Positions 20,393 through 41,516 of a stretch of DNA of 64,000 nt are shown in pieces. Source of the stretch: Roseomonas sp. E05 (GTDB taxonomy: Bacteria > Pseudomonadota > Alphaproteobacteria > Acetobacterales > Acetobacteraceae). Position numbers and translations under genes: made by a program. The notes under the pieces are model-generated. The model was not told the origin of the DNA. It worked only from the letters and a program-made list of their open reading frames with translations, and did no database searches. The stretch's first letter is position 1; each line of letters starts with the position of its first letter. The stretch lies in the NCBI RefSeq assembly GCF_030063475.1, contig NZ_JASIRT010000007.1:62001-126000 (forward strand), read 5' to 3'.

Positions 20393-20406
20393 GGGTGCGG
20401 CTCCGT

Positions 20407-21087: not shown

Positions 21088-21100
21088 GCCTCCCCTCCCC

Positions 21101-21769: not shown

Positions 21770-21835
21770 GGTTCTTCCGGCGCACCCACGAATGGCGGGG
21801 TCCGGGATGGCGCGGCCACCCCGGCGGGTGGGTTC

Positions 21836-21858
21836 CAGGGAGGGCGGCGCCCTCCCTG
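21836..21858 (-). terminator. Intra-operon hairpin between the receptor and permease genes
   Basis: Arms CAGGGAGGGC and GCCCTCCCTG form a perfect 10-bp stem with a three-base loop, 11 bases beyond the receptor stop (minus strand). It probably attenuates transcription or stabilises the receptor mRNA. Confidence 0.6.
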
Positions 21859-21869
21859 TCCCCGGCCGG

Positions 21870-22769: not shown

Positions 22770-22846
22770 CGTGAATCCCCTTCTGCCCCTCGGCATGCCT
22801 TGGTGGCATGTCCTTGGGTGAAGGGGAGCAAGAAATCGGCCGCTTG

Positions 22847-26059: not shown

Positions 26060-28009
26060 ATGACACCAGGCACGCCACTTTCCGCGGCCAACACCTACGA
26101 ACTGCTCGTCCAGGCGGTGGTGGACTACGCCATCTTCATGCTCGACCCGGAAGGGTATGTCATGAGCTGGAATCCGGGCGCCCGGCGGCTCAAGGGCTAC
26201 ACGACCGAGGAGATCATCGGCGCGCATTTCTCGCGCTTCTACACGGCGGAGGACAAGGCCGCCGGGCTTCCCCGGCGGGCGCTGGAAACCGCCGCACGGG
26301 AAGGCCGCTTCGCCGCCGAGGGCTGGCGCTGCCGCAAGGACGGGAGCCACTTCTGGGCGATGGTGGTCATCGACCCCATCCTGCAGGATGGCCGGCTGAT
26401 CGGATTCGCCAAGATCACGCGTGACATGACCGCGCAGCACCAGGCGCAACTGGCGGCCCTGGAGAGCGAGCGGAGCTTCCGCCTGCTGGTGCAGGGCGTG
26501 ACTGACTACGCCATCTACATGCTCAGCCCCGAGGGCTGCGTCACCAGCTGGAATGCCGGCGCCGAACGCATCAAGGGCTATTCCGCCGCCGAGATCATCG
26601 GCCGGCACTTCTCCCGTTTCTACATGCCAGAGGACGTCAGCGCCGGCATGCCCTGGCGGGCGCTCGACATCGCCCGGCGCGAGGGGCGCTACGAGGCCGA
26701 GGCCTGGCGGCGGCGAAAGGACGGCACCCGCTTCTGGGCCAGCGTGGTGATCGACGCCATCCGCGAGAACGGCAAGCTGATCGGCTTCGCCAAGATCACC
26801 CGCGACCTCACCGAGCGGCGCGAGACGCAGCTGCAACTGGAGCAGTCCCGCGAACAGCTCTTCCAGGCGCAGAAGATGGAATCGCTCGGCCAGCTCACCG
26901 GCGGGCTGGCGCATGACTTCAACAACCTGCTGACCGGCATCATGGGCAGCCTGGAACTGCTGCAGACGCAGGTGGCGCGCGGCCAGACCCAGAATCTCGA
27001 GCGCTTCATCTCCTCCGCGCAGGGCGCCGCCTCGCGCGCGGCGGCGCTCACGCACCGGCTGCTCGCCTTCGCGCGGCGGCAGACGCTCGACCCGAAGCCG
27101 ATCGATCCGAACCGCCTGGTTGCCGGCATGGAAGACCTGGTGCGGCACACAGTCGGGCCGGCGATCGAGCTGCGCTTCGAGCTGGCGCCCGACCTCTGGC
27201 CGACGCGGTGCGACCCGAACCAGCTCGAGAACGCCCTCCTCAACCTCTGCATCAACGCCCGCGATGCCATGCCCGACGGCGGAAGGCTGACTCTCAGGAC
27301 CGCCACCACCATCCTCGACGCGCAGCCTGCGCGGGAGTGCGACATGCAGCCCGGCGAGTATGTCGCGATCCGCGTCGCCGATACCGGCACCGGCATGAGT
27401 CCGGAGACCCTCCAGCGTGCCTTCGACCCGTTCTTCACCACCAAGCCGCTGGGGCAGGGCACAGGGCTCGGGCTTTCCATGATCTATGGATTCGCCCGGC
27501 AGTCGGGCGGCCAGGTGCGGATTGCCTCGGAGCGGGGCGTCGGCACGGAGGTCTGCATCTATCTGCCCCGGCATCGGGGACAGGTGGAGGAGGGAGAAAC
27601 GGAGCCCCGCCGGCCCAAGGCGCCGTCCTGGACGGAGGGGGGCAAGCGGGTCCTGGTGGTGGACGACGAGCCAACCGTCCGTATGCTGGCCAGTGAGGTG
27701 CTGAAGGAGCTGGGCCATGCGGCCGTGGAGGCGACCAACGCGGCTTCCGGCCTGCAGATGCTGCAATCCGACCCTGGCATCGATCTGCTGGTCACCGATG
27801 TCGGCCTGCCCGGTGGCATGAACGGACGCCAGCTGGCCGATGCGGCCCGCCAGATCCACCCGGAGCTGCGCGTACTGTTCATCACCGGCTATGCGGAGAA
27901 CGCAACGCTCAGCAAGGGCACCCTGGAACCCGGCATGCACGTCCTGGTCAAGCCCTTCACGATGGAGGCGCTGGCCGAGCGCATCGTGGACATCCTCTCG
28001 GAGCACTGA
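26060..28009 (+). CDS. Hybrid sensor histidine kinase (PAS-PAS-HisKA-HATPase-REC)
   Basis: The protein has 649 residues and no membrane segment. PAS1 is at about residues 11-125 and PAS2 at 140-255. The two are close duplicates: each contains a DYAI-x-ML start, SWNxGAxRxKGY, EIIGxHFSRFY and LIGFAKITRD. The HisKA helix has His285 in GGLAHDFNNLLTGIMG. The ATPase domain shows the N-box NALLNLCINARDAM, the G1 box VADTGTGMS and GTGLGLSMIYGF. A receiver domain (about 530-649) carries the phospho-acceptor Asp580 (LVTDVGLPGG) and the conserved Lys of LVKPFT. The architecture fits cytoplasmic oxygen- or light-type sensing that ends in an internal phosphorelay; no downstream regulator is adjacent. Confidence 0.94.
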   Translation: MTPGTPLSAANTYELLVQAVVDYAIFMLDPEGYVMSWNPGARRLKGYTTEEIIGAHFSRFYTAEDKAAGLPRRALETAAREGRFAAEGWRCRKDGSHFWAMVVIDPILQDGRLIGFAKITRDMTAQHQAQLAALESERSFRLLVQGVTDYAIYMLSPEGCVTSWNAGAERIKGYSAAEIIGRHFSRFYMPEDVSAGMPWRALDIARREGRYEAEAWRRRKDGTRFWASVVIDAIRENGKLIGFAKITRDLTERRETQLQLEQSREQLFQAQKMESLGQLTGGLAHDFNNLLTGIMGSLELLQTQVARGQTQNLERFISSAQGAASRAAALTHRLLAFARRQTLDPKPIDPNRLVAGMEDLVRHTVGPAIELRFELAPDLWPTRCDPNQLENALLNLCINARDAMPDGGRLTLRTATTILDAQPARECDMQPGEYVAIRVADTGTGMSPETLQRAFDPFFTTKPLGQGTGLGLSMIYGFARQSGGQVRIASERGVGTEVCIYLPRHRGQVEEGETEPRRPKAPSWTEGGKRVLVVDDEPTVRMLASEVLKELGHAAVEATNAASGLQMLQSDPGIDLLVTDVGLPGGMNGRQLADAARQIHPELRVLFITGYAENATLSKGTLEPGMHVLVKPFTMEALAERIVDILSEH

Positions 28010-28030: not shown

Positions 28031-28996
28031 TCAGCGGGCGGCGCTCCGGCCGTCGCGCTGCGCCCGGCCGGCCGCGGCGGCACGCCGGCCGCCGGCCGGC
28101 CGAACGCCATAGGGCGCCAGCCCCGCGGTGAGGCGGGCCAGAAAGTGCCTGGCCAGCAGCGCCAGTGGCCGCCCAGGCGGCGCCAGCACATGAATGTGGA
28201 AGACCGTCGTCGGCGTCAGGCGCAGCATCGCCGCCCGCCCGGCCTGCCCGGCGGCGGAGACCGGGTCGCTCACCGCGAAGCCGAGCCCCGCCGCGGCCAT
28301 GGCGCAGGCGGCCTGGGCGTTCTGCGTCTCCGCCACCATCCGGCGCGTCACGCCATGGCGCTCGAACAGCTCGTCCACCAGGTGGCGCAGCCGGTACTGG
28401 CGGCCGAGCGAGATGCAGGGCTCGCCCTCCAGCTCGCGCGGCGTGGCCTCGCGCCGGCCGGCGAGGCGGTGGCCGGGCGGCAGCACCAGCACCGCCGGCA
28501 TGCGGAAGGGTGCCGCCACCTCCAGCGGCGCCAGGCCGGGCAGCGGCAGCGTGAAGCCCAGCTCCACCTGGCCGCCCCGCACAAGTTCCACCACCTCATG
28601 CGAGCTGGCGACCGTCAGCGACAGGCGCGGCTGCCCATGGGCCGCGGCGAATTCCGCCAGCAGGCGCGGCAGCAGCTCCGTTCCGAGCAGCGGCAGGCTG
28701 GCGATGCGCAACTCGCCGACGCCGGTGCTGCGCATGTCATTCGCCACCTGATCCACCCGGCGTGCCGCGGCAAAGAGCCCCTCCACCTCGGTCGCGAAGC
28801 GCTGCGCCTCGGGTGTCGGGCGCAGACGGCGGCGGGTGCGGTCGAACAGCACGAGATCCGTCTCGTCCTCCAGAGCGCGCAGCAGCTTGGTGACGGCGGG
28901 CTGGGAGAGCGACAGCATTTCCGCCGCCGCGCCCACCGAGCCGGCGTGCAGGACGGCCAGGAAGGCCTCAAGCTGGCGGAGACGGGCAGGCGTCAT
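28031..28996 (-). CDS. LysR-family transcriptional regulator
   Basis: The protein has 321 residues. The N-terminal winged helix-turn-helix is LRQLEAFLAVLHAGSVGAAAEMLSLSQPAVTKLLRALEDE. The co-inducer domain follows from about residue 90 (GELRIASLPLLGTELLPRLLAEF). Start ATG 28996 gives the canonical first helix; a longer frame upstream is not conserved. It is divergent from the receptor gene at 29193 across 196 bp and so probably controls that operon, and itself. The C-terminal 30 residues are Arg/Ala-rich and unusually long. Confidence 0.93.
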   Translation of the reverse strand: MTPARLRQLEAFLAVLHAGSVGAAAEMLSLSQPAVTKLLRALEDETDLVLFDRTRRRLRPTPEAQRFATEVEGLFAAARRVDQVANDMRSTGVGELRIASLPLLGTELLPRLLAEFAAAHGQPRLSLTVASSHEVVELVRGGQVELGFTLPLPGLAPLEVAAPFRMPAVLVLPPGHRLAGRREATPRELEGEPCISLGRQYRLRHLVDELFERHGVTRRMVAETQNAQAACAMAAAGLGFAVSDPVSAAGQAGRAAMLRLTPTTVFHIHVLAPPGRPLALLARHFLARLTAGLAPYGVRPAGGRRAAAAGRAQRDGRSAAR

Positions 28997-29192
28997 GCGA
29001 CGGAACTTCGCTACCAAAAGGAATGAAACCGGGAGAATTATGCATTTGCCCCACCGCGGCAACGGATGCCAGCCTGTGAGGGACCGGGCGGGACGGGAGC
29101 CTGAATGGCACGCCACACGGACGGCCGCGCCTTGCGCGGACGGCACAGATGCCACGCCCTTCCCGCCGGCACAGGGTGAGCAAGGATCTGGG
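28997..29192. promoter_or_regulatory. LysR/importer divergent control region
   Basis: The region between the LysR gene and the operon start holds TTC-N11-GAA at 29007-29023, which fits the T-N11-A interrupted dyad of LysR-type sites, and a small AT-rich patch (GAGAATTATGCATTTG, about 29033-29048) suitable for a promoter. AAGGA (29182-29186) is the ribosome binding site of the receptor gene. Confidence 0.45.
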
Positions 29193-30242
29193 ATGATGAG
29201 AAAAGCGCTCCTGGCAGCGGCCTCGCTGCTTGGCCTGATGGCCGCTCCGCAACTGGCCGGCTCCGCGCTGGCGCAGCAGCGCCTGGTGGTCGCCGCCTAT
29301 GGCGGCAGCTACGAGAAGGTGATGCGGGAGCAGGTGATCCCGCCCTTCGAGAAGGCCAACAACGTCCAGGTCGACTACCTGGCCGGCAACTCGACCGACA
29401 GCCTGGCGAAGCTGCAGGCGCAGAAGGGCAACCAGCAGATCGGCGTCGTCGTGCTCGATGACGGGCCGATGTACCAGGCGATCAGCCTGGGCTTCTGTCA
29501 GCAGGTGACGGACAAGGCGGCGCAGGACGCGCTCTACCCGATCGCCGTGCTCGGCGGCGGCAAGGCGCTGGGCACCGGCTTCGGCTATACCGGCCTCGCC
29601 TGGAACGAGAAGCTGTTCAAGGAGCGCAACCTGCCGGCGCCGACGAGCTGGAAGGACCTGGAGCGCGCCGACCTGGAGCAGCGCGTCTCGATTCCCGGCA
29701 TCGACAACACCTATGGCGTGCACACGCTCGTCATGATGGCGCGCATCAATGGCGGCTCGGAGAAGGCCATCGACCCCGGCTTCCGTGCGATGCGGGAGAA
29801 GGTGAACCCGAACGTGCTCGCCTATGAGAGCAGCCCGGGCAAGATGAGCGAGATGTTCCAGTCCGGCGAGATCTGGATGGCCGTCTGGGGCTCCTCCCGC
29901 GCGCGCGCCATGCAACTCGCCGGCTTCCCGATGGGCTTCATCGCCCCCAAGGAAGGCGGCGTGGCGCTGATGACGGCGACCTGCGCCGTGGAGGGCAGCC
30001 CGAACCCCGAGCTGGCGCAGAAATTCGTCTCCCACCTCGTTTCGCCGGAGGTGGAGGCGATCTTCTCCAAGGAGTACGGTTCCGGCCCGACCAACCGCAA
30101 CGCCAAGCTGCCGCCGGAGGTGGCCAGCCAGGTCATCTACGGCGAGGAGCAGGTGAAGAAGCTGGTCGCCATGGACTGGGAGACCATCAACGCCAACCGG
30201 ATGGACTGGACGCGCCGCTGGCAGCGCGAGGTGGAACGCTGA
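29193..30242 (+). CDS. Polyamine-type ABC transporter substrate-binding protein (PotD/F-like)
   Basis: The protein has 349 residues. ATG 29193 lies 6 bases after AAGGA. Signal peptide: MRKALLAAASLLGLMAAPQLAGSALAQQ. The mature start LVVAAYGGSYEKVMREQVIPPFEKANNVQVDYL is typical of family-1/8 receptors for spermidine/putrescine and related amines. FGYTGLAWNEKLFKERNLPAPTSW is another hallmark. It heads a seven-gene operon with ATPase, two permeases and a three-part flavoenzyme, and probably binds the amine or imino acid that the flavoenzyme oxidises. Confidence 0.94.
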   Translation: MMRKALLAAASLLGLMAAPQLAGSALAQQRLVVAAYGGSYEKVMREQVIPPFEKANNVQVDYLAGNSTDSLAKLQAQKGNQQIGVVVLDDGPMYQAISLGFCQQVTDKAAQDALYPIAVLGGGKALGTGFGYTGLAWNEKLFKERNLPAPTSWKDLERADLEQRVSIPGIDNTYGVHTLVMMARINGGSEKAIDPGFRAMREKVNPNVLAYESSPGKMSEMFQSGEIWMAVWGSSRARAMQLAGFPMGFIAPKEGGVALMTATCAVEGSPNPELAQKFVSHLVSPEVEAIFSKEYGSGPTNRNAKLPPEVASQVIYGEEQVKKLVAMDWETINANRMDWTRRWQREVER

Positions 30243-30244
30243 GC

Positions 30245-31306
30245 GTGACGACCGCTTCCACCAGCGACTTCCTGGTGCTGGACGGGGTGGCCAAGAGCTA
30301 CGGCCCCGTCCAGGCGGTGCATGACGTCTCGGTGCGGGTGGCCCAGGGCGAGTTCCTGGGCCTGCTCGGCCCCTCCGGCTGCGGCAAGACCACCACACTG
30401 CAGATGATCGCCGGCTTCGAGACGCCGACCGCCGGGCGCATCCTGCTGGAAGGGCGAGAGCTCGCCGGCATCCCGGCCAGCAGGCGCAATATCGGACTGG
30501 TCTTCCAGTCCTATGCGCTGTTCCCGCACATGACGGTGGCGGAGAACGTCGCCTTCGGGCTGGAGATGCGCCGCGTGCCGAAGCCCGAGCGGCGGGCGCG
30601 CGTCGCCCGCGCGCTGGACCTCGTGCACCTCACGCATCTCGCCGACCGCTTTCCCCGGCAGATGTCGGGTGGCCAGCAGCAGCGCGTGGCGCTGGCCCGC
30701 GCCCTGGTGATCGAGCCGCGCCTGCTGCTGCTCGACGAGCCGCTCTCCAACCTCGACGCCAAGCTGCGCGAGGAGATGCAGGTGGAGCTGCGCGAGGTGC
30801 AGCGGCGCGTCGGCGTCACCACCATCCTCGTCACGCATGACCAGCAGGAGGCCATGGCGCTCTGCGACCGCGTCGCCGTCATGCAGGGCGGGCGCATCGT
30901 GCAGATCGACGCGCCCTGGCGCGCCTATGACGCGCCGGCCGATCCCTTCGTGGCCGACTTCCTCGGCCGCTCGAACCGGCTCCTGGCACGGATCGACGGC
31001 ACGACCGCCGAGATTGCCGGCCATCGCTTCCCCCTCCCCGAGCCGCTGGCCGCGCTGCGCGGCGAGGTGGCGCTGGCGATCCGCCCGGAGCGGCTGCGCA
31101 TCCTCCCCGCCGGCCAGCCCGGCCTGCCCGGCACCGTGCATTCGCGCGTGTTTCTCGGCGGCTTCTGGCTGGTGCGGGTGGAGACCCCCTGCGGCGACAT
31201 GCTGGTGACGGTGCAGAACACCGGCACGCCCCCCGCCGAGGAAGGTGCCGCCGTGGCGCTGGACTGGGACGCGCACAGCCTGCGGCGGCTGGAGGCGGCG
31301 GCATGA
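30245..31306 (+). CDS. Polyamine-type ABC transporter ATP-binding protein (PotA-like)
   Basis: The protein has 353 residues, starting with GTG two bases after the receptor stop. Walker A is GPSGCGKTT, the signature is [17 protein letters not shown], Walker B is LLLLDEPLSNLDAKLRE and the switch is LVTHDQQEA. A C-terminal TOBE-type domain (about 275-350; EVALAIRPERLRIL, VHSRVFLGGFWLVRVET) marks the PotA/MalK-like subclass. Its stop overlaps the next start (ATGA at 31303). Confidence 0.95.
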   Translation: MTTASTSDFLVLDGVAKSYGPVQAVHDVSVRVAQGEFLGLLGPSGCGKTTTLQMIAGFETPTAGRILLEGRELAGIPASRRNIGLVFQSYALFPHMTVAENVAFGLEMRRVPKPERRARVARALDLVHLTHLADRFPRQMSGGQQQRVALARALVIEPRLLLLDEPLSNLDAKLREEMQVELREVQRRVGVTTILVTHDQQEAMALCDRVAVMQGGRIVQIDAPWRAYDAPADPFVADFLGRSNRLLARIDGTTAEIAGHRFPLPEPLAALRGEVALAIRPERLRILPAGQPGLPGTVHSRVFLGGFWLVRVETPCGDMLVTVQNTGTPPAEEGAAVALDWDAHSLRRLEAAA

Positions 31307-32166
31307 GCGCCTCCCGCTTCGCTCCCGCCGCGCTCGCGGCGCCGGCGGTGCTGGCGCTGGGCGTGGCGCTGCTGCTGCCGCTGGCCGGCATCGTGCTGCT
31401 CAGCTTCCAGGGCTTCGATTTCGAGAAGGGCATCATCCCGCGCTGGGATCTCGCCAACTACGCCTCCCTCGCCACCGACTCCCTGTTCCTGGAGGCGCTG
31501 GCGCGGACCTTCCGCATCGCGGTGGTCGTCACCGTCATCTGCCTTGCCATCGGCGTGCCGGAGGCCTGGATCATCCACCGCATGCCGCCGCGCTGGCGCG
31601 GGCTGATGCTGCTGGTGGTGGTCGGTCCGCTGCTGGTCTCGGTGGTGGTGCGCACCTTCGGCTGGATGGTGCTGCTCGGCGGCAACGGGCTGATCAACCA
31701 GGCGCTGCGGGCGCTCGACGTGCCCGGCGCGCCCTTCCGCATGATGTTCACCGAGTTCGCCATCATCCTCGGCCTGGTGCATGTCATGGTGCCGCTGGTG
31801 GTGCTGGCGGTCTGGGCCAGCCTGGGGCGGCTCGACCCCGCCCTCGCCCGTGCCGCCGAAAGCCTCGGCGCCGGGCGCCTCACCGCCTTCCGCCGGGTGG
31901 TGCTGCCCAACATCATGCCGGGCATCCTGGCCGGCGCGCTGATGGTCTTTTGCCTGTCCGCCTCCGCCTTCGCCACGCCGGCCATGCTCGGGGGGCGCCG
32001 CCTGAAGGTGGTCTCCAGCATGACCTATACGGAGTTCCTGAACACGCTGAACTGGCCGCTCGGCGCCGCCATCGCCGTGCTGCTGCTGCTCGCCATCCTC
32101 GCCGTGACGCTGCTCTGGACGCGCTTCGTCGAGCGCCGCGCGCTGCGCCGCCTGGGAGTGGGCTGA
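31303..32166 (+). CDS. Polyamine-type ABC transporter permease (PotB-like)
   Basis: The protein has 287 residues and about six membrane segments (first: LAAPAVLALGVALLLPLAGI). The EAA loop is ARAAESLGAGRLTAFRRVVLPNIMPG. TFGWMVLLGGNGLINQALRAL is typical of PotB-like subunits. It overlaps both neighbours by 1-4 bases, which indicates translational coupling in a tightly packed operon. Confidence 0.94.
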   Translation: MSASRFAPAALAAPAVLALGVALLLPLAGIVLLSFQGFDFEKGIIPRWDLANYASLATDSLFLEALARTFRIAVVVTVICLAIGVPEAWIIHRMPPRWRGLMLLVVVGPLLVSVVVRTFGWMVLLGGNGLINQALRALDVPGAPFRMMFTEFAIILGLVHVMVPLVVLAVWASLGRLDPALARAAESLGAGRLTAFRRVVLPNIMPGILAGALMVFCLSASAFATPAMLGGRRLKVVSSMTYTEFLNTLNWPLGAAIAVLLLLAILAVTLLWTRFVERRALRRLGVG

Positions 32167-32975
32167 TGCCGCGCAACGACCGCAACGGCGCGCTCGCCAT
32201 CGGTTTCCACCTGCTCTTCATCGCCTTCATCCTGGCGCCGCTGGTGGTGGTGGTGCTCGTCTCCTTCACCGACAAGGGCTTCCTGGCGATGCCCTTCAGC
32301 GGCGCCTCGCTGCGCTGGTGGTGGGCGATCGGCGACAACCCGCGCTTCCTGGAGAGCTTCTGGTTCAGCCTGCAACTGGCCTTCGTCACCGCCACGCTGG
32401 CCGCGTTGGTGGCGGTGCCGGCGGCGCTGGCCATCGTGCGCTTCCGTTTCCCGGGGCGGGAGGCGCTGATGGCCCTGCTCGCCTCGCCGCTGATGATCCC
32501 GCATGTGGTGCTCGGCGTCGCCTTGCTGCGCTTCTTCGCCGGGCTCGGGCTGGTCGGCTCCTTCGTCGCGCTGGCGGCAGCGCATCTCGTCGTGGTGGTG
32601 CCCTACATGGCGCGGCTGGTGACGGCCTCGCTCGCCGGGCTCGACCCGCGCATCGAGCGCGCCGCGGAAAGCCTGGGCGCCGGCAGGTTCGCCGTGTTCC
32701 GCCGCATCACCCTGCCGCTGATCCTGCCCGGCGTCGCCGGGGGCTGGACGCTGGCCTTCATCACCAGCTTCGACGAGCTGACGGTGAGCCTCTTCCTTGC
32801 CTCGCCCAGCGCCACGCCGCTGCCGGTGCGGCTGTTCACCTATATCGACCAGATGACCGACCCGCTGGTCGCCTCCGTCTCCGCCGCGCTCATCGCGGTG
32901 ACGGCGGTGGTGCTGGTGGTATTGGACCGCTTCTACCCCATCGACCGGTTGCTGACCGGGGAGCGCCGCGCATGA
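32166..32975 (+). CDS. Polyamine-type ABC transporter permease (PotC-like)
   Basis: The protein has 269 residues. The N-terminal membrane helix is GFHLLFIAFILAPLVVVVLVSF. The EAA loop ERAAESLGAGRFAVFRRITLPLILPG is nearly identical to that of the preceding permease, as expected for the PotB/PotC heterodimer. FITSFDELTVSLFLASPSATPLPVRLFTYI is a PotC signature. The ATG shares a base with the previous stop, and the stop overlaps the flavoenzyme start (ATGA at 32972). Confidence 0.94.
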   Translation: MPRNDRNGALAIGFHLLFIAFILAPLVVVVLVSFTDKGFLAMPFSGASLRWWWAIGDNPRFLESFWFSLQLAFVTATLAALVAVPAALAIVRFRFPGREALMALLASPLMIPHVVLGVALLRFFAGLGLVGSFVALAAAHLVVVVPYMARLVTASLAGLDPRIERAAESLGAGRFAVFRRITLPLILPGVAGGWTLAFITSFDELTVSLFLASPSATPLPVRLFTYIDQMTDPLVASVSAALIAVTAVVLVVLDRFYPIDRLLTGERRA

Positions 32976-34093
32976 CACGCCAGAGTTTCGACGCCATCGT
33001 CATAGGAGGAGGGCTGGTCGGCGCCGCCATCGCCTATGGCCTGCAGCGGCAGGGCCTCGCCACCCTGCTGCTGGACGAGGGCGACATCGCCTTCCGCGCC
33101 AGCCGCGGCAATTTCGGGCTGGTCTGGGTGCAGTCGAAGGGCCTCGGCGCGCCGCATTACCAGCGCTGGACGCGCGGCTCGGCGCAGGAATGGCCGAAGC
33201 TGGCCGCGGAGCTGAAGGAGCGCACGGGCATCGGCACCGGGCTGCAGCAGCCCGGCGGCGTGCATCTCTGCCTCTCCGAGGAGGAGTTCGAGAAGCGCAC
33301 CGAGTACATGGCACGGCTGCAGCGCGAGGCCGGCAATTTCGGGCTGGAATATCGCATGATCCGCGGCGCCGAGGCGCGCGACATGCTGCCCGGCCTCGGC
33401 CCGCAGGTGGTGGGCCTGAGCTGGACGCCCTATGACGGCCACGCCAGCCCGCTCTACCTGCTGCGGGCGCTGCACAGCGGCTTCACCGAGGCCGGCGGCA
33501 CCTACCAGCCCAATGCCCGCGTCGAGAACAGCAGCGCCGCGCCGAACGACTTCAGCGTGGAGGCCGCCGGGCAGCGCTTCCGCGCGCCGCGCGTGGTGCT
33601 GGCCGCCGGGCTGGGCAACGCCGATCTCGCCCCGCGCTTCGGGCTCGAAGCCCCGGTGCGGCCCGAGCGCGGGCAGATCCTGGTCACCGAACGCACCCGG
33701 ACCGTGCTGCCCATGCCCACCACCACCATCCGGCAGACCGAGGAAGGCTCCCTGATGCTGGGCGACAGCAAGGAGGATGCCGGCTTCGACCTCGGCCAGT
33801 CGCCCGAGGTGATGCGCAAGATCGCCCGCCGGGCCGTGCTCTCCTTCCCCTGGATCGCCGAGCTCAACCTGGTTCGCGCCTGGTCGGCGCTGCGTGTCAT
33901 GGCCCCCGATGGCCTGCCGATCTACGACCAGTCCGAGCGCTTCCCCGGCGCCTTCACCGCCAATTGCCACAGCGGCGTGACGCTGGCCGGCACCCATGCC
34001 AACCGCCTGGCGCCGATGATCGCCGCCGGCGCCCTGGAGCCCGAAATGGCCCCCTTCAGCGCGAGACGCTTCGATGTTCGTTCAGCGGCCTGA
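32972..34093 (+). CDS. FAD-dependent oxidoreductase, catalytic beta subunit (OoxB/HcnC/DadA-like)
   Basis: The protein has 373 residues. The FAD Rossmann motif is FDAIVIGGGLVGAAIAYGLQRQGLATLLLDEG, followed by RASRGNFGLVWVQSKGLG. The C-terminal FAD contact is HSGVTLAGTHANRLAPMI. Proteins of this group form the catalytic subunit of heteromeric amino acid dehydrogenases such as opine oxidase, D-hydroxyproline dehydrogenase and hydrogen cyanide synthase. That assignment is strengthened by the next two genes, which encode the expected [2Fe-2S] and electron-transfer subunits. It overlaps the gene after it by 20 bases. Confidence 0.9.
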   Translation: MTRQSFDAIVIGGGLVGAAIAYGLQRQGLATLLLDEGDIAFRASRGNFGLVWVQSKGLGAPHYQRWTRGSAQEWPKLAAELKERTGIGTGLQQPGGVHLCLSEEEFEKRTEYMARLQREAGNFGLEYRMIRGAEARDMLPGLGPQVVGLSWTPYDGHASPLYLLRALHSGFTEAGGTYQPNARVENSSAAPNDFSVEAAGQRFRAPRVVLAAGLGNADLAPRFGLEAPVRPERGQILVTERTRTVLPMPTTTIRQTEEGSLMLGDSKEDAGFDLGQSPEVMRKIARRAVLSFPWIAELNLVRAWSALRVMAPDGLPIYDQSERFPGAFTANCHSGVTLAGTHANRLAPMIAAGALEPEMAPFSARRFDVRSAA

Positions 34094-34385
34094 CATCCGC
34101 CCTGCCACCGTGGAGGTGCTGGTGGACGGCGCCCCGGTCCTCGTCCCCGAGGGGGCTTCCGCCGCTGCCGCCGTGCTGCTGGCCGGCCTGTCCGCCATCC
34201 GCGAGACGCCCGTCACCGGCGCGCCGCGCCTGCCCTACTGCATGATGGGTGTCTGCTTCGACTGCCTCGCCGAGATCGACGGCGTGGCCAACCGGCAGTC
34301 CTGCATGGTGACGGTGCGGCCGGGCATGCGCATCCGCCCGCAGCACGGCGCGCGCGAGGCCTACCGCCCGGAGGACGCGGCATGA
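34074..34385 (+). CDS. [2Fe-2S] ferredoxin-like small subunit (HcnA-type)
   Basis: The protein has 103 residues. C56, C61 and C64 (YCMMGVCFDCLAEIDG) plus C77 (NRQSCMV) form the plant-type ferredoxin cluster site seen in small subunits of heteromeric amino acid oxidases. It starts inside the end of the catalytic subunit gene and its stop overlaps the next ATG (34382), so all three subunits are translationally coupled. It should transfer electrons between the two flavoproteins. Confidence 0.9.
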   Translation: MFVQRPDIRPATVEVLVDGAPVLVPEGASAAAAVLLAGLSAIRETPVTGAPRLPYCMMGVCFDCLAEIDGVANRQSCMVTVRPGMRIRPQHGAREAYRPEDAA

Positions 34386-35764
34386 GCCTCGCCTACGACC
34401 TCGCCATCATCGGCGCCGGCCCGGCCGGGATGAGCGGCGCGCTGGAGGCGGCCGGACTCGGCCTTTCCGTCGCCGTCATCGACGAGCAGGCGGCGCCCGG
34501 CGGGCAGATCTTCCGCGCCGTGGAAGCCGCCGCCGCCGACCCGGCGCTGACCGGCGAATACGCGCGCGAGGGCGCCGCCCTGGCCCGTCGCTTCCGCGCC
34601 ATGCCGAATATCGACTACCGGCCGGAGACCACGCTCTGGCACATCGACATCGAGAGCGGCCTGCTCTCGCTGCGCGGGGCGCGCGGCAGCGGGACGATCA
34701 CGGCAGAGCGCGTGCTGCTGGCCACCGGTGCGCAGGAGCGCCCGGTGCCGATCCCCGGCTGGACGCTGCCCGGCGTGATGACGGCGGGCGCGGCGCAGAT
34801 CCTGCTCAAGCAGGCGGGCGCCGTGCCGAAGGGCCGCACCGTGCTGGCCGGTCAGGGACCGCTGCTCTGGCTGCTGGCGGTGCAGCTCGCCCGCGCCGGC
34901 GCGGCCCCGGCCCTGCTGCTGGAGACCACGCCCGGTGGCGCGCTGCGCCAGGCGATAGGGGCGGGCGGGTTGTGGCGCGGCCGCGCGATGCTGGCCAAGG
35001 GTGCCACGCTGATGCTGGAGGCCCGCCGCGCCGGCATGAAGGTGGTGCGCGGCGTGCGCAGCCTGCGCGCCGAGGGCGAAGGCGCGGTGCGCCGGCTGGC
35101 CTGGGACGGCGGCAGCACGAGTTGCGACACGCTGCTGCTGCATGAGGGCGTCATTCCCTCGACCCACATCACCCGCGCGCTCGGGCTGGCGCATGACTGG
35201 GACGCCGCGCAACTCTGCTGGCGCCCTTCTCTGGATGAATGGGGTGCCAGCAGCCATCCGCGCATCGCCGTGGCGGGCGATGGGGGCGGCATCGGCGGCT
35301 GGCAGGCCGCGGTGGAGGGCGGCGCCCTCGCCGCGCTGGACGCTGCGCACCGCGCCGGCAAGCTTTCCGCCGCGGAGCGCGACCGCCGCGCCGCGCCGCA
35401 TCGCCAGGCCCGCGACAACGCCCTGGCGCTGCGCCCCTTCCTCGACCGGCTCTATGCGCCGGCGCCCACGGTGCTCGCCCCGGCGGATGACGCCACCATC
35501 GTCTGCCGCTGCGAGGAGATCACCGCCGGGCAGGTGCGGCAGGCGGCGCGGCTCGGCGCCACCGGCCCGAACCAGGCCAAGGCCTATCTGCGCACCGGCA
35601 TGGGGCCGTGCCAGGGCCGGATGTGCGGCACCACCGTCGCCGCGCTGATCGCGGAGACCCGCGGCATCAGCATGGAAGAGGCAGGCGCCCTGCGCCCGCG
35701 CGCGCCCTACAAGCCGATCACCGTCGGCGAGCTGGCGGACCTGCCGGCGGCAGAGGCGGTGTGA
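34382..35764 (+). CDS. FAD/NAD(P)-binding oxidoreductase with C-terminal BFD-like [2Fe-2S] domain (OoxA/HcnB-like alpha subunit)
   Basis: The protein has 460 residues. FAD site: YDLAIIGAGPAGMSGALEAAGLGLSVAVIDEQ. A central ATGAQERPVPIPGWTLPGVMTAGA segment is typical of this family. The C-terminal part (about residues 370-425) has CRCEEITAGQVRQAARLG and GPCQGRMCG, the four-Cys BFD-like cluster. This is the alpha subunit partner of opine oxidase, D-hydroxyproline dehydrogenase and hydrogen cyanide synthase complexes, thought to pass electrons to the respiratory chain. It ends the operon, and a strong hairpin follows. Confidence 0.92.
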   Translation: MSLAYDLAIIGAGPAGMSGALEAAGLGLSVAVIDEQAAPGGQIFRAVEAAAADPALTGEYAREGAALARRFRAMPNIDYRPETTLWHIDIESGLLSLRGARGSGTITAERVLLATGAQERPVPIPGWTLPGVMTAGAAQILLKQAGAVPKGRTVLAGQGPLLWLLAVQLARAGAAPALLLETTPGGALRQAIGAGGLWRGRAMLAKGATLMLEARRAGMKVVRGVRSLRAEGEGAVRRLAWDGGSTSCDTLLLHEGVIPSTHITRALGLAHDWDAAQLCWRPSLDEWGASSHPRIAVAGDGGGIGGWQAAVEGGALAALDAAHRAGKLSAAERDRRAAPHRQARDNALALRPFLDRLYAPAPTVLAPADDATIVCRCEEITAGQVRQAARLGATGPNQAKAYLRTGMGPCQGRMCGTTVAALIAETRGISMEEAGALRPRAPYKPITVGELADLPAAEAV

Positions 35765-35771
35765 GGGGAAG

Positions 35772-35802
35772 GCCGGGGCGCCTGCCGGAAGGGCGCCCCG
35801 GC
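35772..35802. terminator. Bidirectional hairpin between the oxidoreductase operon and MFS gene
   Basis: Perfect 11-bp arms GCCGGGGCGCC and GGCGCCCCGGC with a nine-base loop lie between two convergent genes, 8 bases after the 35764 stop. It probably ends transcription from both sides. Confidence 0.7.
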
Positions 35803-35811
35803 GGCGACACG

Positions 35812-37020
35812 TCAGCAGGCTTCGGAGGAGGCGACGGCCGTCCCGGAGCGTTCCAGGGCCAGGGAGGCGGCGAAAACCGCCGATCCGGCCAGGGTCAGCA
35901 CCGCGCCGATCGCGCCGGTCGAGGTCCAGCCGAAGCCGGCGGCGATCACCATGCCGCCGAGCCAGGCGCCGAGCGCGTTGGCGATGTTGAAGGCCGAGTG
36001 GTTCAGCGAGGCGGCGAGCATCTGCGCATCCGGCGCGACGTCCAGCAGGCGCGTCTGCAGCGCGGGGCCGAGGCCCATGCTGGTGGCACCGATCAGGAAG
36101 ATGTTGACCGTCGCCAGGGGCAGGCTGAAGGGCGTGAAGAGAAAGCAGAACTGCGCCACGATGCTCAGGGACAGCATCACGCCGATGGCGCGCATGACGC
36201 CGCGGTCCGAGAGCCAGCCGCCGGCCATGTTGCCGGCGATCATGCCGAGGCCGAAGACGGCGAGCAGCACGGGCACGGTTGCCCGGGCGATGCCGGTCAC
36301 CTCCGTCAGCGTGGGCACGATGTAGCTGTAGATCGCGAACATGCCGCCGAAGCCGATGGCCGCCGTGCCGAGGGCGAGCAGCACCTGCGGGCGCAGCACG
36401 GCCTTCATCTCGCGCCGGACGCCGATATTCGGCCCTGCCCCGATGATGGGAAGGCAGAGGCGAATCAGCGCCGCGGTGGCCAGCGCCATCAGCGCGACGA
36501 TGCCGAAGACGGCGCGCCAGCTCGCGAACTGGCCGATCCAGGTGGCGAGCGGCACCCCGATCAGGTTGGCGATGCTGAGGCCGAGGATGACCCGCGCCAC
36601 GGCGCTGGCCCGCCGGTCCGGCGGCGCCAGGGAGGCGGCCACCATGGCGGCGGTGCCGAGATAGGCGCCATGCGGCAGGCCGGCGACCAGGCGGGCGGCG
36701 AAGGTGCCCAGGAAGTTGGGCGCCAGGGCGCTGGCCAGGTTGCCGAAGGCGATCAACAGGGCGAGGCCGACCAGCAGCAGCCGGCGCGGGCAGCGGGCGA
36801 AGGCCAGGGCCAGGAGCGGCGCCCCCAGGACCACGCCCAGGGCATAGGCGCTGATGGTAAGTCCGGCCTTCGGCACGCTCACGCCGGTGGCCGCGGCGAT
36901 CTGCGGCAGCAGCCCCATGGCGGCGAACTCGCTGACGCCGAGGGAGAGCGCACCGAGGCACAGGGCCAGCTCGGCGAATCGGGAAGCGCGGGGTGTCGCC
37001 AAGGCCATCAGCGTCTCCAT
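35812..37020 (-). CDS. MFS transporter, AraJ/sugar-efflux (DHA1) type
   Basis: The protein has 402 residues and 12 predicted membrane helices. The first helix LALCLGALSLGVSEFAAMGLLPQIA and the motif A region YALGVVLGAPLLALAFARCPRR are typical of the DHA1 family that includes AraJ and SotB. LVAGLPHGAYLGTAAMVAASLAPPDRRASAVA is a further hallmark. The substrate is unknown; efflux is likely. The start is either Met 37020 or Met 37008 (MALATPR). It is convergent with the flavoenzyme operon. Confidence 0.9.
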   Translation of the reverse strand: METLMALATPRASRFAELALCLGALSLGVSEFAAMGLLPQIAAATGVSVPKAGLTISAYALGVVLGAPLLALAFARCPRRLLLVGLALLIAFGNLASALAPNFLGTFAARLVAGLPHGAYLGTAAMVAASLAPPDRRASAVARVILGLSIANLIGVPLATWIGQFASWRAVFGIVALMALATAALIRLCLPIIGAGPNIGVRREMKAVLRPQVLLALGTAAIGFGGMFAIYSYIVPTLTEVTGIARATVPVLLAVFGLGMIAGNMAGGWLSDRGVMRAIGVMLSLSIVAQFCFLFTPFSLPLATVNIFLIGATSMGLGPALQTRLLDVAPDAQMLAASLNHSAFNIANALGAWLGGMVIAAGFGWTSTGAIGAVLTLAGSAVFAASLALERSGTAVASSEAC

Positions 37021-37140
37021 TCCGGGGGAATGGACGCCTCCTCACCTGGCGCGCCGGCACCAGCGTTCTTGTTGAACCCTTCTTAGCCGCTTCCCGGGCC
37101 GCCGCGAAGGTTTGCCAGCCAAACGGTTGATGTCCAGCGA

Positions 37141-37214
37141 TGCGCTTTCCGGGGCGCTGCGCCAAACCGGCAGAAAAAAGATGGGGGTCCGGGGGAATTC
37201 CTTCCCCGGCCTTC
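37141..37214 (-). repeat. Third copy of the 2.8-kb stop-proximal repeat
   Basis: Read on the minus strand immediately after the ABC-F stop: GAAGGCCGGGG, AAGGAATTCCCCC, GGACCCCCATC, TTTTTTCTGCC, then a GGTTTGGCGC segment. The same order occurs in the right-hand copy at about 2850-2906. The hairpin CCGGGG/CCCCGG spans 37189-37209 and is followed on the minus strand by a six-T run (about 37179-37174), so it could terminate abcF. Confidence 0.7.
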
Positions 37215-39086
37215 TTACGCCGCTTCGAGCTTTTCCTGCAGTTCCAGCCACTCCTCTTCCAGGGCGGCAACCTGCTTGGCGATGGCACCCTGCCGCTGGG
37301 TGGCCCAGGCGATGTCCTCGGCCTTGAAGCGGGCATAGGTACCTGGATCGCCCAGCTTCCGCTCCAGCAGGGCGGCCTCCTTCTGCAGCTTCGCCATCTC
37401 GGCTTCCACCTTGCCCACCCGCTGGCGCAGCGGCGCCAGAGCCTGGCGGTTCTCGGCCCGCTCGCGGCGCTCGTCGCGGCGGGTGGCGGCGGGCTCGGCG
37501 GCCGGGCGGGCGGCGCGGGCGCGCTCGGCCAGCAGGGCGCGATAGTCGTCGAGGTCACCGTCGAAGCTGGTCACGCGACCGTCCGCCACCAGCCAGAGCC
37601 GGTCGGCGGCGAGGGTGACGAGGTGCGGGTCGTGGGTGATCAGCACCACGGCGCCGCCGAACTCGGCCAGCGCCTTCACCAGCGCCTCGCGCGCGTCGAG
37701 GTCGAGATGGTTGGTCGGCTCGTCCAGGATCAGCAGGTGCGGCGCCTCGCGGGTGCAGAGGGCAAGCAGCAGCCGCGCCTTCTCGCCGCCGGAAAGCGCG
37801 CCGATTCCGGTGGTGGCGCGTTCCTCGTCCAGGCCGAAGCGGGCGAGCTGGGCGCGGCACTGCGTCTCGGTGGCCTTGGCGCCGAGCGCCGCCTGCATAT
37901 GGGTCAGCGGCGTGCCGGTGAGGTCCAGCTCCTCCGCCTGGTGCTGCGCGAAGTAGCCGACCTTCAGGCGGCGGTCGCGGTGCATCTCGCCGGCCATCGG
38001 CTCCAGCCGCCCGGCGAGCAGCTTCGCCAGCGTGGACTTGCCGTTGCCATTGGCGCCGAGCAGGGCGATGCGGTCCTCCTGGTCCAGCCGCAGGTCCAGC
38101 CCACGCAGGATGGGGCGCCCGTCATAGCCGACATCCACGCGCGAGAGGCCGACGATGGGGGGCGCCAGCTCGGAGGGCTCGGGGAAGGCGAAGCGGGTGG
38201 GCGTGTCCTCCACCACCGCCTCGATGGGCGGTAGCTTCTCCAGCGCCTTCAGGCGGGACTGCGCCTGGCGCGCCTTGGTGGCCTTGGCGCGAAAGCGGTC
38301 CACGAAAGACTGCATATGGGCGCGCTGGGCGGCGATCTTCTCGTTCTGCGCCACCTGCTGCGCCGCCCGCTCCGTGCGGATGCGGACGAAGTTGTCATAG
38401 CCGCCGGGATAGAGCGTGATCCGGCGCTTATCGAGATGCGCGATGGCATCCACGCAGCGCTCCAGCAGCCCGCGGTCATGGCTGACCACCAGGGCGGCGC
38501 CGGCGAAGCGCGCCAGCCAGCCTTCCAGCCAGAGGGTGGCTTCCAGGTCAAGATGGTTGGTCGGCTCGTCCAGCAGCAGGATATCGGGCTCCAGGAAGAG
38601 CGCCTGGGCCAGCGCCACGCGCATCCGCCAGCCGCCGGAGAACTCGCCCACCGCCCGCTCCTGGGCGGCGGCGTCGAAGCCCAGTCCGGCCAGCACGATG
38701 GCGGCGCGGGCCGGGGCGCTGTCGGCGCGGATGGCGATCAGCCGCTCGTGGATCTCGGCGAGCTGGGCGCCGTCGGCCTCCGTCTCCAGCCGGGCGAGCA
38801 GGCCGGCCCGCTCGGTATCGGCGGACAGCACGGTCTCCAGCAGGCTCTGGCTGCCGCCCGGCGCCTCCTGCGCCACATGCGCCATGCGGGCGCGCGCGGC
38901 GAGGCGGATCTCGCCGCCATCCGGCTGCAGTTGCCCGGTGATGGCGCGCAGCAGGGTGGACTTGCCGGCGCCGTTGCGCCCGACCAGCCCGATCTTGCGG
39001 CCAGGGTCCACCATCAGCTCGGCCCCTTCCAGCAGGGGGCGGCCGGCGATGCGGATGGTGAGGTCACGAATGGCGAGAACGGTCAT
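37215..39086 (-). CDS. ABC-F family ATPase (Uup/EttA-like)
   Basis: The protein has 623 residues with two tandem ATPase domains and no membrane part, which defines the ABC-F translation factors. Domain 1: VGRNGAGKSTLL, GEFSGGWRMRVALAQALF, LLLDEPTNHLDLEATLWLE. The linker at about 240-310 (VAQNEKIAAQRAHMQSFVDRFRAKATKARQAQSR) is the P-site tRNA interaction motif. Domain 2: LGANGNGKSTL, GALSGGEKARLLLAL, LILDEPTNHLDLDARE. The C-terminus (from about 545) is a coiled coil (QRVGKVEAEMAKLQKEAALLERKL). ATG 39086 is the first Met of domain 1. The likely role is ribosome-associated translation control; the exact subclass is not fixed. Confidence 0.93.
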   Translation of the reverse strand: MTVLAIRDLTIRIAGRPLLEGAELMVDPGRKIGLVGRNGAGKSTLLRAITGQLQPDGGEIRLAARARMAHVAQEAPGGSQSLLETVLSADTERAGLLARLETEADGAQLAEIHERLIAIRADSAPARAAIVLAGLGFDAAAQERAVGEFSGGWRMRVALAQALFLEPDILLLDEPTNHLDLEATLWLEGWLARFAGAALVVSHDRGLLERCVDAIAHLDKRRITLYPGGYDNFVRIRTERAAQQVAQNEKIAAQRAHMQSFVDRFRAKATKARQAQSRLKALEKLPPIEAVVEDTPTRFAFPEPSELAPPIVGLSRVDVGYDGRPILRGLDLRLDQEDRIALLGANGNGKSTLAKLLAGRLEPMAGEMHRDRRLKVGYFAQHQAEELDLTGTPLTHMQAALGAKATETQCRAQLARFGLDEERATTGIGALSGGEKARLLLALCTREAPHLLILDEPTNHLDLDAREALVKALAEFGGAVVLITHDPHLVTLAADRLWLVADGRVTSFDGDLDDYRALLAERARAARPAAEPAATRRDERRERAENRQALAPLRQRVGKVEAEMAKLQKEAALLERKLGDPGTYARFKAEDIAWATQRQGAIAKQVAALEEEWLELQEKLEAA

Positions 39087-39254
39087 GGCCCCCCGGATGT
39101 AGTGCAGATGCGCCCCTCGCGGAAAGCGCCACGTGCAGTGAAGCCCGCGGTGGCCACCCTGGTCCTGCCCCATTGGAGCGCCTAGGTTGGGGCAGCCGCA
39201 GGCCGCGGCCCCGCCGACCGAAAGCCCCGCCTCCTTGCCCTTTTGCTGCCGCGC

Positions 39255-40295
39255 ATGAGCCTGACCGCCTCTGTCCCGCCCCTTTTCCCGGACGGACCGC
39301 GCCGGCCGCGCCGCTCCTGGCGCCGCCCGGCGGTGTGGATTTCGGCGGCCCTTCATGCGGCGCTGCTCATGGCGCTCGTGCTGTGGGGCCGGCCGCGCAC
39401 GCTGCCCTCGCCCGGTTCGCAGGAGGCCGTCGAGGTGGTGTTCGAGAGCCAGGCGGCGCCGCAGGAGGCGCCGAGCGCGGCGGCCGATGCCCCCGCTCCG
39501 ACCGAGCCACCGGACGAGCAGGCGCCCGCGGCCCCGCCCGCTCCGCCGCCGCCTCCTGCACCCGCTGAGCCTGCGCCCCCGCAGCCCGCCCCGCCACCGA
39601 CCGAGGCGCCGCCGCAGCCGGCGCCCGCGCAGCCGGTTCAGCCGCCGGTTGAGACAGCGCCCCAGCCGGCGCCCGACGCCGAGTTGCCGCCGCCCGCACC
39701 CGTGCCGGAGCTGGACATTCGCCCCGATCTCGCCCCGGCGACGCCGCTGCGGCTCAACCCGCCACGCCCACCGCCAGCGCGGCAGGAACCGGCTCCGCCC
39801 CGCCCCGCCTCCCCTTTCGCAGGGACCATCGATCTCGGCCGCAGCATTCCCCTGACCATGGCGCCACAACCGGCTCCCCGGTCGCGCCCGGCGCCGGGCG
39901 GTCAGATGGACATGGCCATCGGGCCAGTGCCGGAGCGTTCGCTGATGCCGCGCCGGGACAGCCCGGCCATCGGCTCGCCGCTCTCCTATGTCTCCGGTGC
40001 CCGCCCCTCGATGGACTGGGGCAGCGCCTTCCAGCAATGGGTTCAGCGGCGGATGTTCTATCCGCGGGCGGCGGTGCAGGCCGGCGAGGACGGCGCGGTG
40101 GTGCTGCGGGTCACCGTGGAGAAGGACGGGCGCGTCTCCGCTGTGCGTGTCATCACCTCCTCCGGCTCGCGCTGGCTGGACTCGGCCAGCCTTTCGCTGT
40201 TCCGCGACCAGATCGGGCCGGCCTTCCCGCCGGAGATGCTGGGCGGGCAGGACAGCACGACCGTGACCTTCACCACCGACTACATCCTGCGGTGA
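39255..40295 (+). CDS. TonB-like energy transducer with long proline-rich spacer
   Basis: The protein has 346 residues. One N-terminal membrane helix (AVWISAALHAALLMALVLW, about 26-44) anchors it in the inner membrane. Residues about 65-190 are very rich in Pro, Ala, Glu and Gln and should span the periplasm. The C-terminal 100 residues form the TonB domain (WVQRRMFYPRAAVQAGEDGAVVLRVTVEKDGRVSAVRVITSSGSRWLDSA, given in part). It should pass proton-motive energy from ExbB/ExbD to outer membrane receptors, but no exbBD or receptor gene is near. ATG 39255 is preferred over TTG 39243. Confidence 0.88.
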   Translation: MSLTASVPPLFPDGPRRPRRSWRRPAVWISAALHAALLMALVLWGRPRTLPSPGSQEAVEVVFESQAAPQEAPSAAADAPAPTEPPDEQAPAAPPAPPPPPAPAEPAPPQPAPPPTEAPPQPAPAQPVQPPVETAPQPAPDAELPPPAPVPELDIRPDLAPATPLRLNPPRPPPARQEPAPPRPASPFAGTIDLGRSIPLTMAPQPAPRSRPAPGGQMDMAIGPVPERSLMPRRDSPAIGSPLSYVSGARPSMDWGSAFQQWVQRRMFYPRAAVQAGEDGAVVLRVTVEKDGRVSAVRVITSSGSRWLDSASLSLFRDQIGPAFPPEMLGGQDSTTVTFTTDYILR

Positions 40296-40351
40296 GGTGC
40301 GCTGCCCGCCCGCCCGCCCCCTTCCCCTGACCGCGCCCTGGAGAATCCGGC

Positions 40352-41458: not shown

Positions 41459-41516
41459 GGCATGCTCCGCCCCCCCATGCCGGGGTGGCGGCGCATGCCG
41501 CGGAACAATGCGCGGA

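Follow-up and report, generated by a model that had tools for sequence, protein, structure and literature searches.

Which compound is taken up and oxidised by an operon that joins a PotABC-like importer to a three-subunit flavin dehydrogenase? The question arises from a window of 64,000 nucleotides, the whole stretch of Roseomonas sp. E05 DNA analysed here. The first-pass annotation described an import-and-oxidise operon under LysR control with an oxidase of the opine-oxidase type, a description that the analysis supports. Open reading frames and Pfam matches at 28031-35764 confirm a LysR gene and, divergent from it, seven genes that share one direction, in the order binding protein, ATPase, two permeases, and beta, gamma and alpha dehydrogenase subunits:

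28031..28996, minus strand: LysR-type regulator, 321 aa, divergent from the operon (Pfam HTH_1, LysR_substrate)
28997..29195, no strand: intergenic control region (alignment of the window and four relatives)
29196..30242, plus strand: solute-binding protein (SBP), SBP_bac_8 type, 348 aa (Pfam SBP_bac_8)
30245..31306, plus strand: ABC importer ATPase, PhnT2/PotA-like, GTG start, 353 aa (Pfam ABC_tran, TOBE_2)
31303..32166, plus strand: ABC permease, PotB-like, 287 aa (Pfam BPD_transp_1)
32166..32975, plus strand: ABC permease, PotC-like, 269 aa (Pfam BPD_transp_1)
32972..34093, plus strand: OdhB/NoxB/OoxB/VoxB-like beta subunit, FAD, 373 aa (Pfam DAO, E 8.7e-54)
34074..34385, plus strand: OdhC-like gamma subunit, [2Fe-2S], 103 aa (Pfam Fer2_4, 2.1e-23)
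34382..35764, plus strand: OdhA/NoxA/OoxA/VoxA-like alpha subunit, FAD and BFD [2Fe-2S], 460 aa (Pyr_redox_2, Fer2_BFD, SO_alpha_A3)
35812-37020, convergent to the operon: MFS transporter gene, the next gene after OdhA

The LysR start is taken as the ATG at 28996; the long open reading frame opens at 29155. The SBP and ATPase genes are separated by a 2-nt gap, and the later junctions overlap by 4, 1, 4, 20 and 4 nt, the last two joining the tandem beta, gamma and alpha genes. Five of the six junctions therefore overlap, in agreement with the earlier remark that nearly all do; such overlaps might serve to control stoichiometry, as that annotation supposed. RidA, OdhB2 and traR were sought directly after OdhA in the window and are not there; the MFS transporter gene follows instead.

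The window oxidase groups, by its beta subunit, with the type-1 flavin opine dehydrogenases (Nox/Oox/Odh) and is predicted to belong among them. The phylogenetic check against OoxAB and NoxAB that had been proposed favours this kinship. In a tree made by a quick method, rooted at the midpoint and holding no HcnC or D-HypDH rows, OdhB falls in an 81-row group with NoxB, OoxB, VoxB of pTiS4 and Bradyrhizobium OdhB1 that stands apart from 47 rows of OdhB2 and paralogues (SH-aLRT 100). OdhB is 49.7% identical to B. japonicum OdhB1, 46.0% to VoxB, 45.0% to OoxB, 39.2% to NoxB and 22.8% to B. japonicum OdhB2; OdhA is 46.7% identical to its B. japonicum counterpart, 43.4% to VoxA, 42.6% to OoxA and 40.5% to NoxA. 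The beta subunit contains both GGGLVG at position 12 (GxGxxG) and R302-A-W304 (the R-x-W FMN motif), with R302 and W304 invariant in all 27 rows and R308 present beside them. The best solved relative of this subunit is glycine oxidase, whose arginine that binds the substrate carboxylate is kept. The gamma subunit motif, C-X4-C-X2-C-X12-C, fits the type-1 pattern C-X4-C-X2-C-X11-12-C, and so do the gamma subunits of Nox, Oox and Vox; the Bradyrhizobium row, translated from an out-of-frame range, gave no match. The alpha motif is printed as C-X-C-X15-20-C-X4-C, but the spacing found is 32 in the window, OoxA and the Bradyrhizobium subunit, 33 in NoxA and, with a pattern that picked up a later Cys, 37 in VoxA, indicating that the printed range misfits these proteins too. 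The Fer2_BFD match of the alpha subunit scores 42.2 bits.

Opine-like compounds are amino acids joined via nitrogen to a keto acid. All eight genes occur in window order on pTiS4, the vitopine-type tumour-inducing (Ti) plasmid of a grapevine bacterium, immediately before traR, and on pTiCG78. Like the window, the Vox operon of these plasmids has a divergent LysR gene, binding protein, ATPase, two permeases and a beta-gamma-alpha oxidase; on pTiS4 the oxidase is followed by traR and lies near T-DNA genes, whereas the window copy is followed by the convergent MFS gene. A catabolic region near T-DNA3 of pTiS4, the part in which this operon lies, was proposed for vitopine breakdown, the vitopine role of the Vox operon being itself a proposal, and the rideopine region was proposed to be a different one, adjoining T-DNA4 (PMC8554961, 2021). 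Two oxidase sets are carried by pTiS4, either of which may cleave vitopine. NoxBA of pTiC58 and OoxBA of the octopine Ti plasmid pTiA8196 share the three-subunit enzyme and order of the window, but the importers of those plasmids are the nocPQMT and occQMPT sets, whereas the window importer is Pot-type. Neither the host genome nor any control genome matched the opine-synthase family PF02317.

Bradyrhizobium too keeps the importer-oxidase block. One example is B. japonicum SZCCT0148, where the oxidase order OdhB1-C-A-B2 equals that of bll7193-7190, and where regulator, importer and oxidase are ordered as in the window. This genome has a single OdhB2-type locus, the next match being 27%. Unlike the window operon, the B. 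japonicum cluster has OdhB2 and, in SZCCT0148, RidA. The likeness to bll7193-7190 rests on gene order, the sequences compared being those of Bradyrhizobium other than USDA110. Octopine dehydrogenase activity was measured on the purified bll7193-7190 product, with a Km of 19.5 mM for octopine in the Cl2Ind assay; the OdhAB1C form is described as 'poor', and OdhB2 serves as the active beta subunit in that enzyme (PMC4575208). With such a Km and a poor OdhAB1C form, octopine is unlikely to be the natural substrate. The nopaline dehydrogenase OdhBCA of P. putida KT2440 (PP_4457-4456), likened here by description, is also a three-subunit, dye-linked enzyme with overlapping genes; both it and the B. 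japonicum enzyme were shown to contain FAD and FMN, and the P. putida one iron as well (PMC4575208). Of the 80 loci, 45 carry RidA downstream of the oxidase, as expected if the oxidase makes an imine.

A conserved-neighbourhood search had been suggested, and the gene order does recur outside the host genus, on pTiS4, on pTiCG78 and in Bradyrhizobium. Identical order so far from the genus indicates that the arrangement is more than chance. The earlier view that the importer-oxidase pairing is uncharacterised did not hold, given the equal operon on pTiS4 and the correspondence by gene order of the Bradyrhizobium oxidase to the purified one. The operon is of a kind already known, and its substrate is probably opine-like. 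The literature searched, with supplements and most subscription journals outside it, yielded no tested substrate for the pairing.

The importer appears to have been inherited with the oxidase. The window binding protein is 49% identical (E 3.3e-106) to the oxidase-linked Bradyrhizobium one, compared with 34% for the next Bradyrhizobium binding protein and at most 30% for paralogues in its own genome. Distances of all four importer genes track those of OdhB across 63 operons (r 0.92-0.96) and across 15 dereplicated operons (r 0.62-0.71); none of 2000 permutations reached each r, although such permutations leave shared ancestry in. Agropine- and mannopine-binding proteins are among the solved structures related to the binding protein, although other structures match it best.

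It is rather likely that the operon imports and oxidatively cleaves an opine-like secondary-amine amino acid of the octopine/vitopine/nopaline class. What the analysis itself shows is gene content, order, family, correlated distances and motifs. The substrate would be an amino acid whose nitrogen carries a carboxyalkyl group, making it a secondary-amine dicarboxylate. LysR may sense the compound and switch on the divergent operon, and the binding protein and ABC importer, judging from their family, would take the compound in. The C-N bond would then be oxidised at the beta-subunit FAD of the beta-gamma-alpha enzyme, and electrons would move from this FAD to FMN, then to [2Fe-2S] and the second FAD, with the respiratory chain as the presumed final acceptor. 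Hydrolysis of the resulting imine would release an amino acid and a 2-oxo acid. RidA would speed this hydrolysis, and in the host would need to be supplied by a locus outside the operon.

Among the substrates listed in the first-pass annotation, opines gain from the Nox/Oox/Vox kinship and from pTiS4, whereas hydroxyproline, amines, polyamines and glycine, as the precursor of hydrogen cyanide, are disfavoured. An HcnABC-like synthase making HCN from glycine, the least probable reading, would share the three-part subunit kind, and its use of glycine would suit the solved relative of the beta subunit. The hcnABC genes run [2Fe-2S], BFD, DAO, whereas the window runs DAO, [2Fe-2S], BFD, as in nox, oox and odh. 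Gene order alone is not decisive here, since an opine-type cluster of B. thailandensis also runs C-A-B (PMC4575208). The linked importer argues against this reading, as HCN from glycine needs no co-inherited importer. OdhB groups with Nox/Oox/Vox in a tree without HcnC, for which no labelled sequence appeared among the 60 rows shown from each of three plasmid listings (721, 582 and 1105 records). A D-hydroxyproline dehydrogenase within a hydroxyproline pathway is very improbable. The enzyme kind is shared, and in Azospirillum a related Pot-type importer adjoins a gene of PF05544 (proline racemase/hydroxyproline epimerase), but that locus contains no OdhB-like gene. The single host genome has no PF05544 match in a search that did detect the family in three control genomes and in Azospirillum, and hydroxyproline is disfavoured on that ground. 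Import and oxidation of a polyamine, or of a polyamine-derived opine such as rideopine, is improbable as well. The importer proteins resemble PotABC, yet all score below the Pot cut-offs: the ATPase 343.3 against 482 for PotA and 334.5 against 355.6 for the potA subfamily, the permeases 178.7 against 348 for PotB and 161.9 against 326 for PotC, and the binding protein 37.1 against 582 for PotD. The positions of PotD E36, D168, E171 and D257, acidic polyamine-binding residues whose letters were checked against PotD, are non-acidic in all 34 oxidase-linked binding proteins in a low-identity alignment, making polyamines unlikely. The positions of T35 and S83 are acidic in the same 34, so the site still holds acidic residues. 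Together with the kept carboxylate arginine, the four non-acidic positions disfavour amine and polyamine substrates, and the rideopine region proposed for pTiS4 lies elsewhere, beside T-DNA4 (PMC8554961).

The main rival to an opine substrate is a D-amino acid role. The enzyme could be a dehydrogenase of D-amino acids or simple N-substituted glycines whose task is to recycle D-amino acids, such as those of peptidoglycan, with opine oxidation as a side activity of this family; this is unlikely, though less so than the readings above. In 11 of 36 loci from the host's taxonomic order, OdhB relatives (67-77% identity) lie on the same strand as an L,D-transpeptidase gene, joined in 9 of the 11 by a MepK-like gene, and lack the window-type importer, which is present in just 7 of the 36; this misfits a dedicated opine role. 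In six loci (L063-L065, L067-L069) the transpeptidase frame overlaps the OdhA end by 19-32 nt. In two genomes of the host genus (L056, L058), a D-amino acid dehydrogenase gene accompanied by an amino-acid importer is divergent from OdhBCA; the window has this DadA set too, at a distance of about 9 kb from odhB. The weak octopine kinetics of the B. japonicum enzyme (PMC4575208) also suit such a role. Against it, the Nox/Oox kinship and the location of the pTiS4 operon just ahead of traR indicate opines, and the sole transpeptidase match in the host genome sits on another contig, indicating that the OdhB-transpeptidase linkage is lineage-specific.

If the operon does cleave an opine-like compound, a tentative extension, somewhat doubtful at present, is that it represents a widespread import-and-cleave system outside crown gall, serving a natural opine-like compound of soil or plants, and that a vitopine-type Ti plasmid recruited the whole operon. 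Crown-gall opines would then be imitations of an existing nutrient class. The operon links the weak purified octopine dehydrogenase of Bradyrhizobium, the proposed vitopine region of pTiS4 and its own occurrence in many bacteria not known as tumour formers, subjects handled apart in the literature consulted. The natural substrate would tell what opine catabolism served outside crown gall.

The regulator gives no such guidance. Its best NCBIfam match, PRK11013, scores 182.4 bits, below the cut-off of 288, and it is 36.7% identical to the pTiS4 regulator and likewise 36.7% to OccR, over 196 aa. In the LysR tree it falls in its own 7-row group, apart from OccR, which counts against the opine reading, and the NocR branch is very long (4.75); no substrate is therefore drawn from the regulator. 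Scanning the control region for inverted repeats gave short palindromes only. The best-conserved stretch among five aligned sequences, the window and four relatives, is at about 29007-29050, adjoining the LysR start, and is a candidate operator.

The importer-oxidase pairing in the Roseomonas operon is already known, and the operon is a further example of it, with a putative opine-like substrate. Its genes and immediate flank are arranged as follows.

28031-28996, minus strand: LysR gene, divergent from the seven-gene operon
29196-35764, plus strand: seven co-directional genes for the importer and the oxidase
35812-37020, minus strand: MFS transporter, the next gene beyond the operon

Pfam domain matches confirmed the families that the first-pass annotation gave for the LysR, importer and oxidase genes. 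Its statement that nearly all junctions overlap was also borne out; five of six overlap by 1-20 nt, and the first is a 2-nt gap. The described anatomy holds up, and the operon is conserved as a unit. Convergent with the LysR gene is a gene for a PAS-PAS-histidine kinase-receiver hybrid protein (26060-28009, plus strand) that ends 21 nt before the LysR gene end. At 37416-37514 (plus strand), ARAGORN calls a tRNA whose type is undetermined and whose anticodon has four bases; the call falls inside a long frame on the minus strand that has two ATPase-like matches, and it is probably spurious.

The same annotation had regarded the pairing as uncharacterised. Instead, the Ti plasmid pTiS4 (NC_011982) carries eight genes identical in kind and order to those of the window, a run ended by traR with ipt approximately 3 kb further on, and pTiCG78 carries the matching eight-gene operon. 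The names VoxA and VoxB are in use in PMC10745273. We infer that the pTiS4 operon is part of the vitopine region proposed in PMC8554961, the cited passages of which carry no coordinates. A second pTiS4 oxidase set lies within 20 kb, together with hydantoinase genes; given passages without coordinates, either set may be the vitopine cleaver. The second set (29023-42134 of the pTiS4 locus) has another gene arrangement and adjoins the Vox operon, with RidA and a further ABC importer alongside.

All three oxidase subunits contain flavin opine dehydrogenase motifs: GGGLVG and R302-x-W304 in the beta subunit OdhB, C-X4-C-X2-C-X12-C in the gamma subunit OdhC, and GAGPAG with a BFD cluster in the alpha subunit OdhA. 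The alpha [2Fe-2S] motif spacing is 32, outside the 15-20 printed in PMC4575208; NoxA, OoxA and the Bradyrhizobium subunit likewise have 32-33. In a 128-row tree, built by a quick method with a midpoint root and several long branches flagged, and with HcnC and D-HypDH absent from its rows, OdhB shares an 81-row group with NoxB, OoxB, VoxB and OdhB1 of Bradyrhizobium, and the remaining 47 rows are OdhB2 and paralogues. A single cluster within the 81 rows (support 100) unites 26 from the bacterial family of the window. By sequence, the operon belongs with type-1 opine dehydrogenase operons, and it is predicted to work like them on a putative natural substrate. Arg308 of OdhB, unchanged in all 27 aligned rows, aligns with the glycine oxidase arginine that holds the substrate carboxylate, and so suggests that the substrate resembles an amino acid.

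The importer is Pot-like by architecture, and the Pot models shown all score under their cut-offs. In all 34 oxidase-linked binding proteins, the residues aligned with PotD E36, D168, E171 and D257 are non-acidic and the residues aligned with T35 and S83 are acidic, although the low identity means that individual positions may be wrongly aligned. Among the solved relatives of the window protein are proteins that bind agropine, mannopine or iron, as well as PotD and PotF; the top match, 4edp, is named only ABC transporter binding protein.

Importer and oxidase have travelled together. In B. japonicum, the closest match to the window binding protein is the oxidase-linked one (49%), followed by one at 34%; paralogues in the window's own genome reach 30% or less. 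Across 63 operons, a set that leans to Bradyrhizobium and contains at least one duplicate pair (L100/L105) and a repeat (L106 of L102), distances correlate with those of OdhB for LysR (r = 0.948), the binding protein (0.951), ATPase (0.957), PermB (0.920) and PermC (0.943), values reached in 0 of 2000 permutations for each gene. Among 15 operons below 70% OdhB identity, r is 0.621, 0.618, 0.666, 0.709 and 0.710, respectively (one of 2000 permutations for LysR, none for the others), and 0.871 for OdhA. These correlations show joint inheritance of the operon genes and do not identify a substrate.

A genome scan with an alignment headed by Microvirga OdhB confirmed at least 589 loci. The best 80 were kept, and the shares among them are biased because they are the best matches to a single query. 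OdhC and OdhA are present in all 80, a Pot-type importer lies upstream on the same strand in 60, and divergent LysR, OdhB2 and RidA occur in 62, 63 and 45 (58, 55 and 40 of the 60 importer-bearing loci). Several of the other 20 are on short contigs, and two (L164, L167) have a divergent importer. B. japonicum SZCCT0148 has LysR, importer, OdhB1-C-A-B2 and RidA, and its genome contains one OdhB2-type locus (next hit 27%). According to PMC4575208, the purified bll7193-7190 enzyme, of order OdhB1-C-A-B2, has octopine dehydrogenase activity with a Km of 19.5 mM, and its OdhB1 form is poor. The equation of the SZCCT0148 locus with bll7193-7190 rests on gene order and genus, SZCCT0148 being compared rather than USDA110.

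Two further surveys carry less bias. In 289 genomes of the class (Microvirga OdhB query, E 1e-80 or better), 31 have an OdhB relative, in 33 places including the window. A complete Pot-type importer adjoins OdhB in seven of the 32 other loci, some on short contigs (L222-L224, L232, L234, L238 and L240; divergent in L224), and L242 has a weaker-matching one. In 200 genomes of the order (window OdhB query, E 1e-60), 54 match, in 57 places including the window; seven of the 36 loci compared, from 56 non-window places, have a Pot-type importer.

Some of these contexts count against an opine-like substrate. An L,D-transpeptidase gene lies on the same strand as the oxidase genes in 11 of the 36 order loci, nine of which also have a MepK-like gene (NCBIfam, representatives: 239.8 of 425 and 168.8 of 185). 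The transpeptidase frame overlaps the OdhA end by 19-32 nt in six and starts 156-220 nt past OdhA in three; L066 is without an OdhA match, and in L070 OdhB and OdhC flank the pair. In two same-genus genomes, OdhBCA is divergent from DadA and an amino-acid importer set. A D-amino acid substrate would fit these contexts as well. However, the only transpeptidase match in the window's genome is on another contig. In the LysR tree, the window regulator falls apart from OccR, a further point against an opine-like substrate. The transpeptidase loci (L063-L070, L073-L075) are from the window's bacterial family and hint at a possible link of this enzyme to peptidoglycan.

The window also contains an amino-acid importer (SBP_bac_3, two permeases, ATPase) with D-amino acid dehydrogenase DadA (19610-24088, minus strand), a set of the kind that is directly divergent from OdhBCA in the two same-genus genomes. 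The genome has no match to PF05544 and nine RidA-family genes, none inside the operon. Three more Odh-like FAD/BFD sets are on contigs C31, C17 and C11. The C17 set lies with hydantoinase-like genes and beside the genome's single ornithine cyclodeaminase family gene, recalling the noc region of pTiC58.
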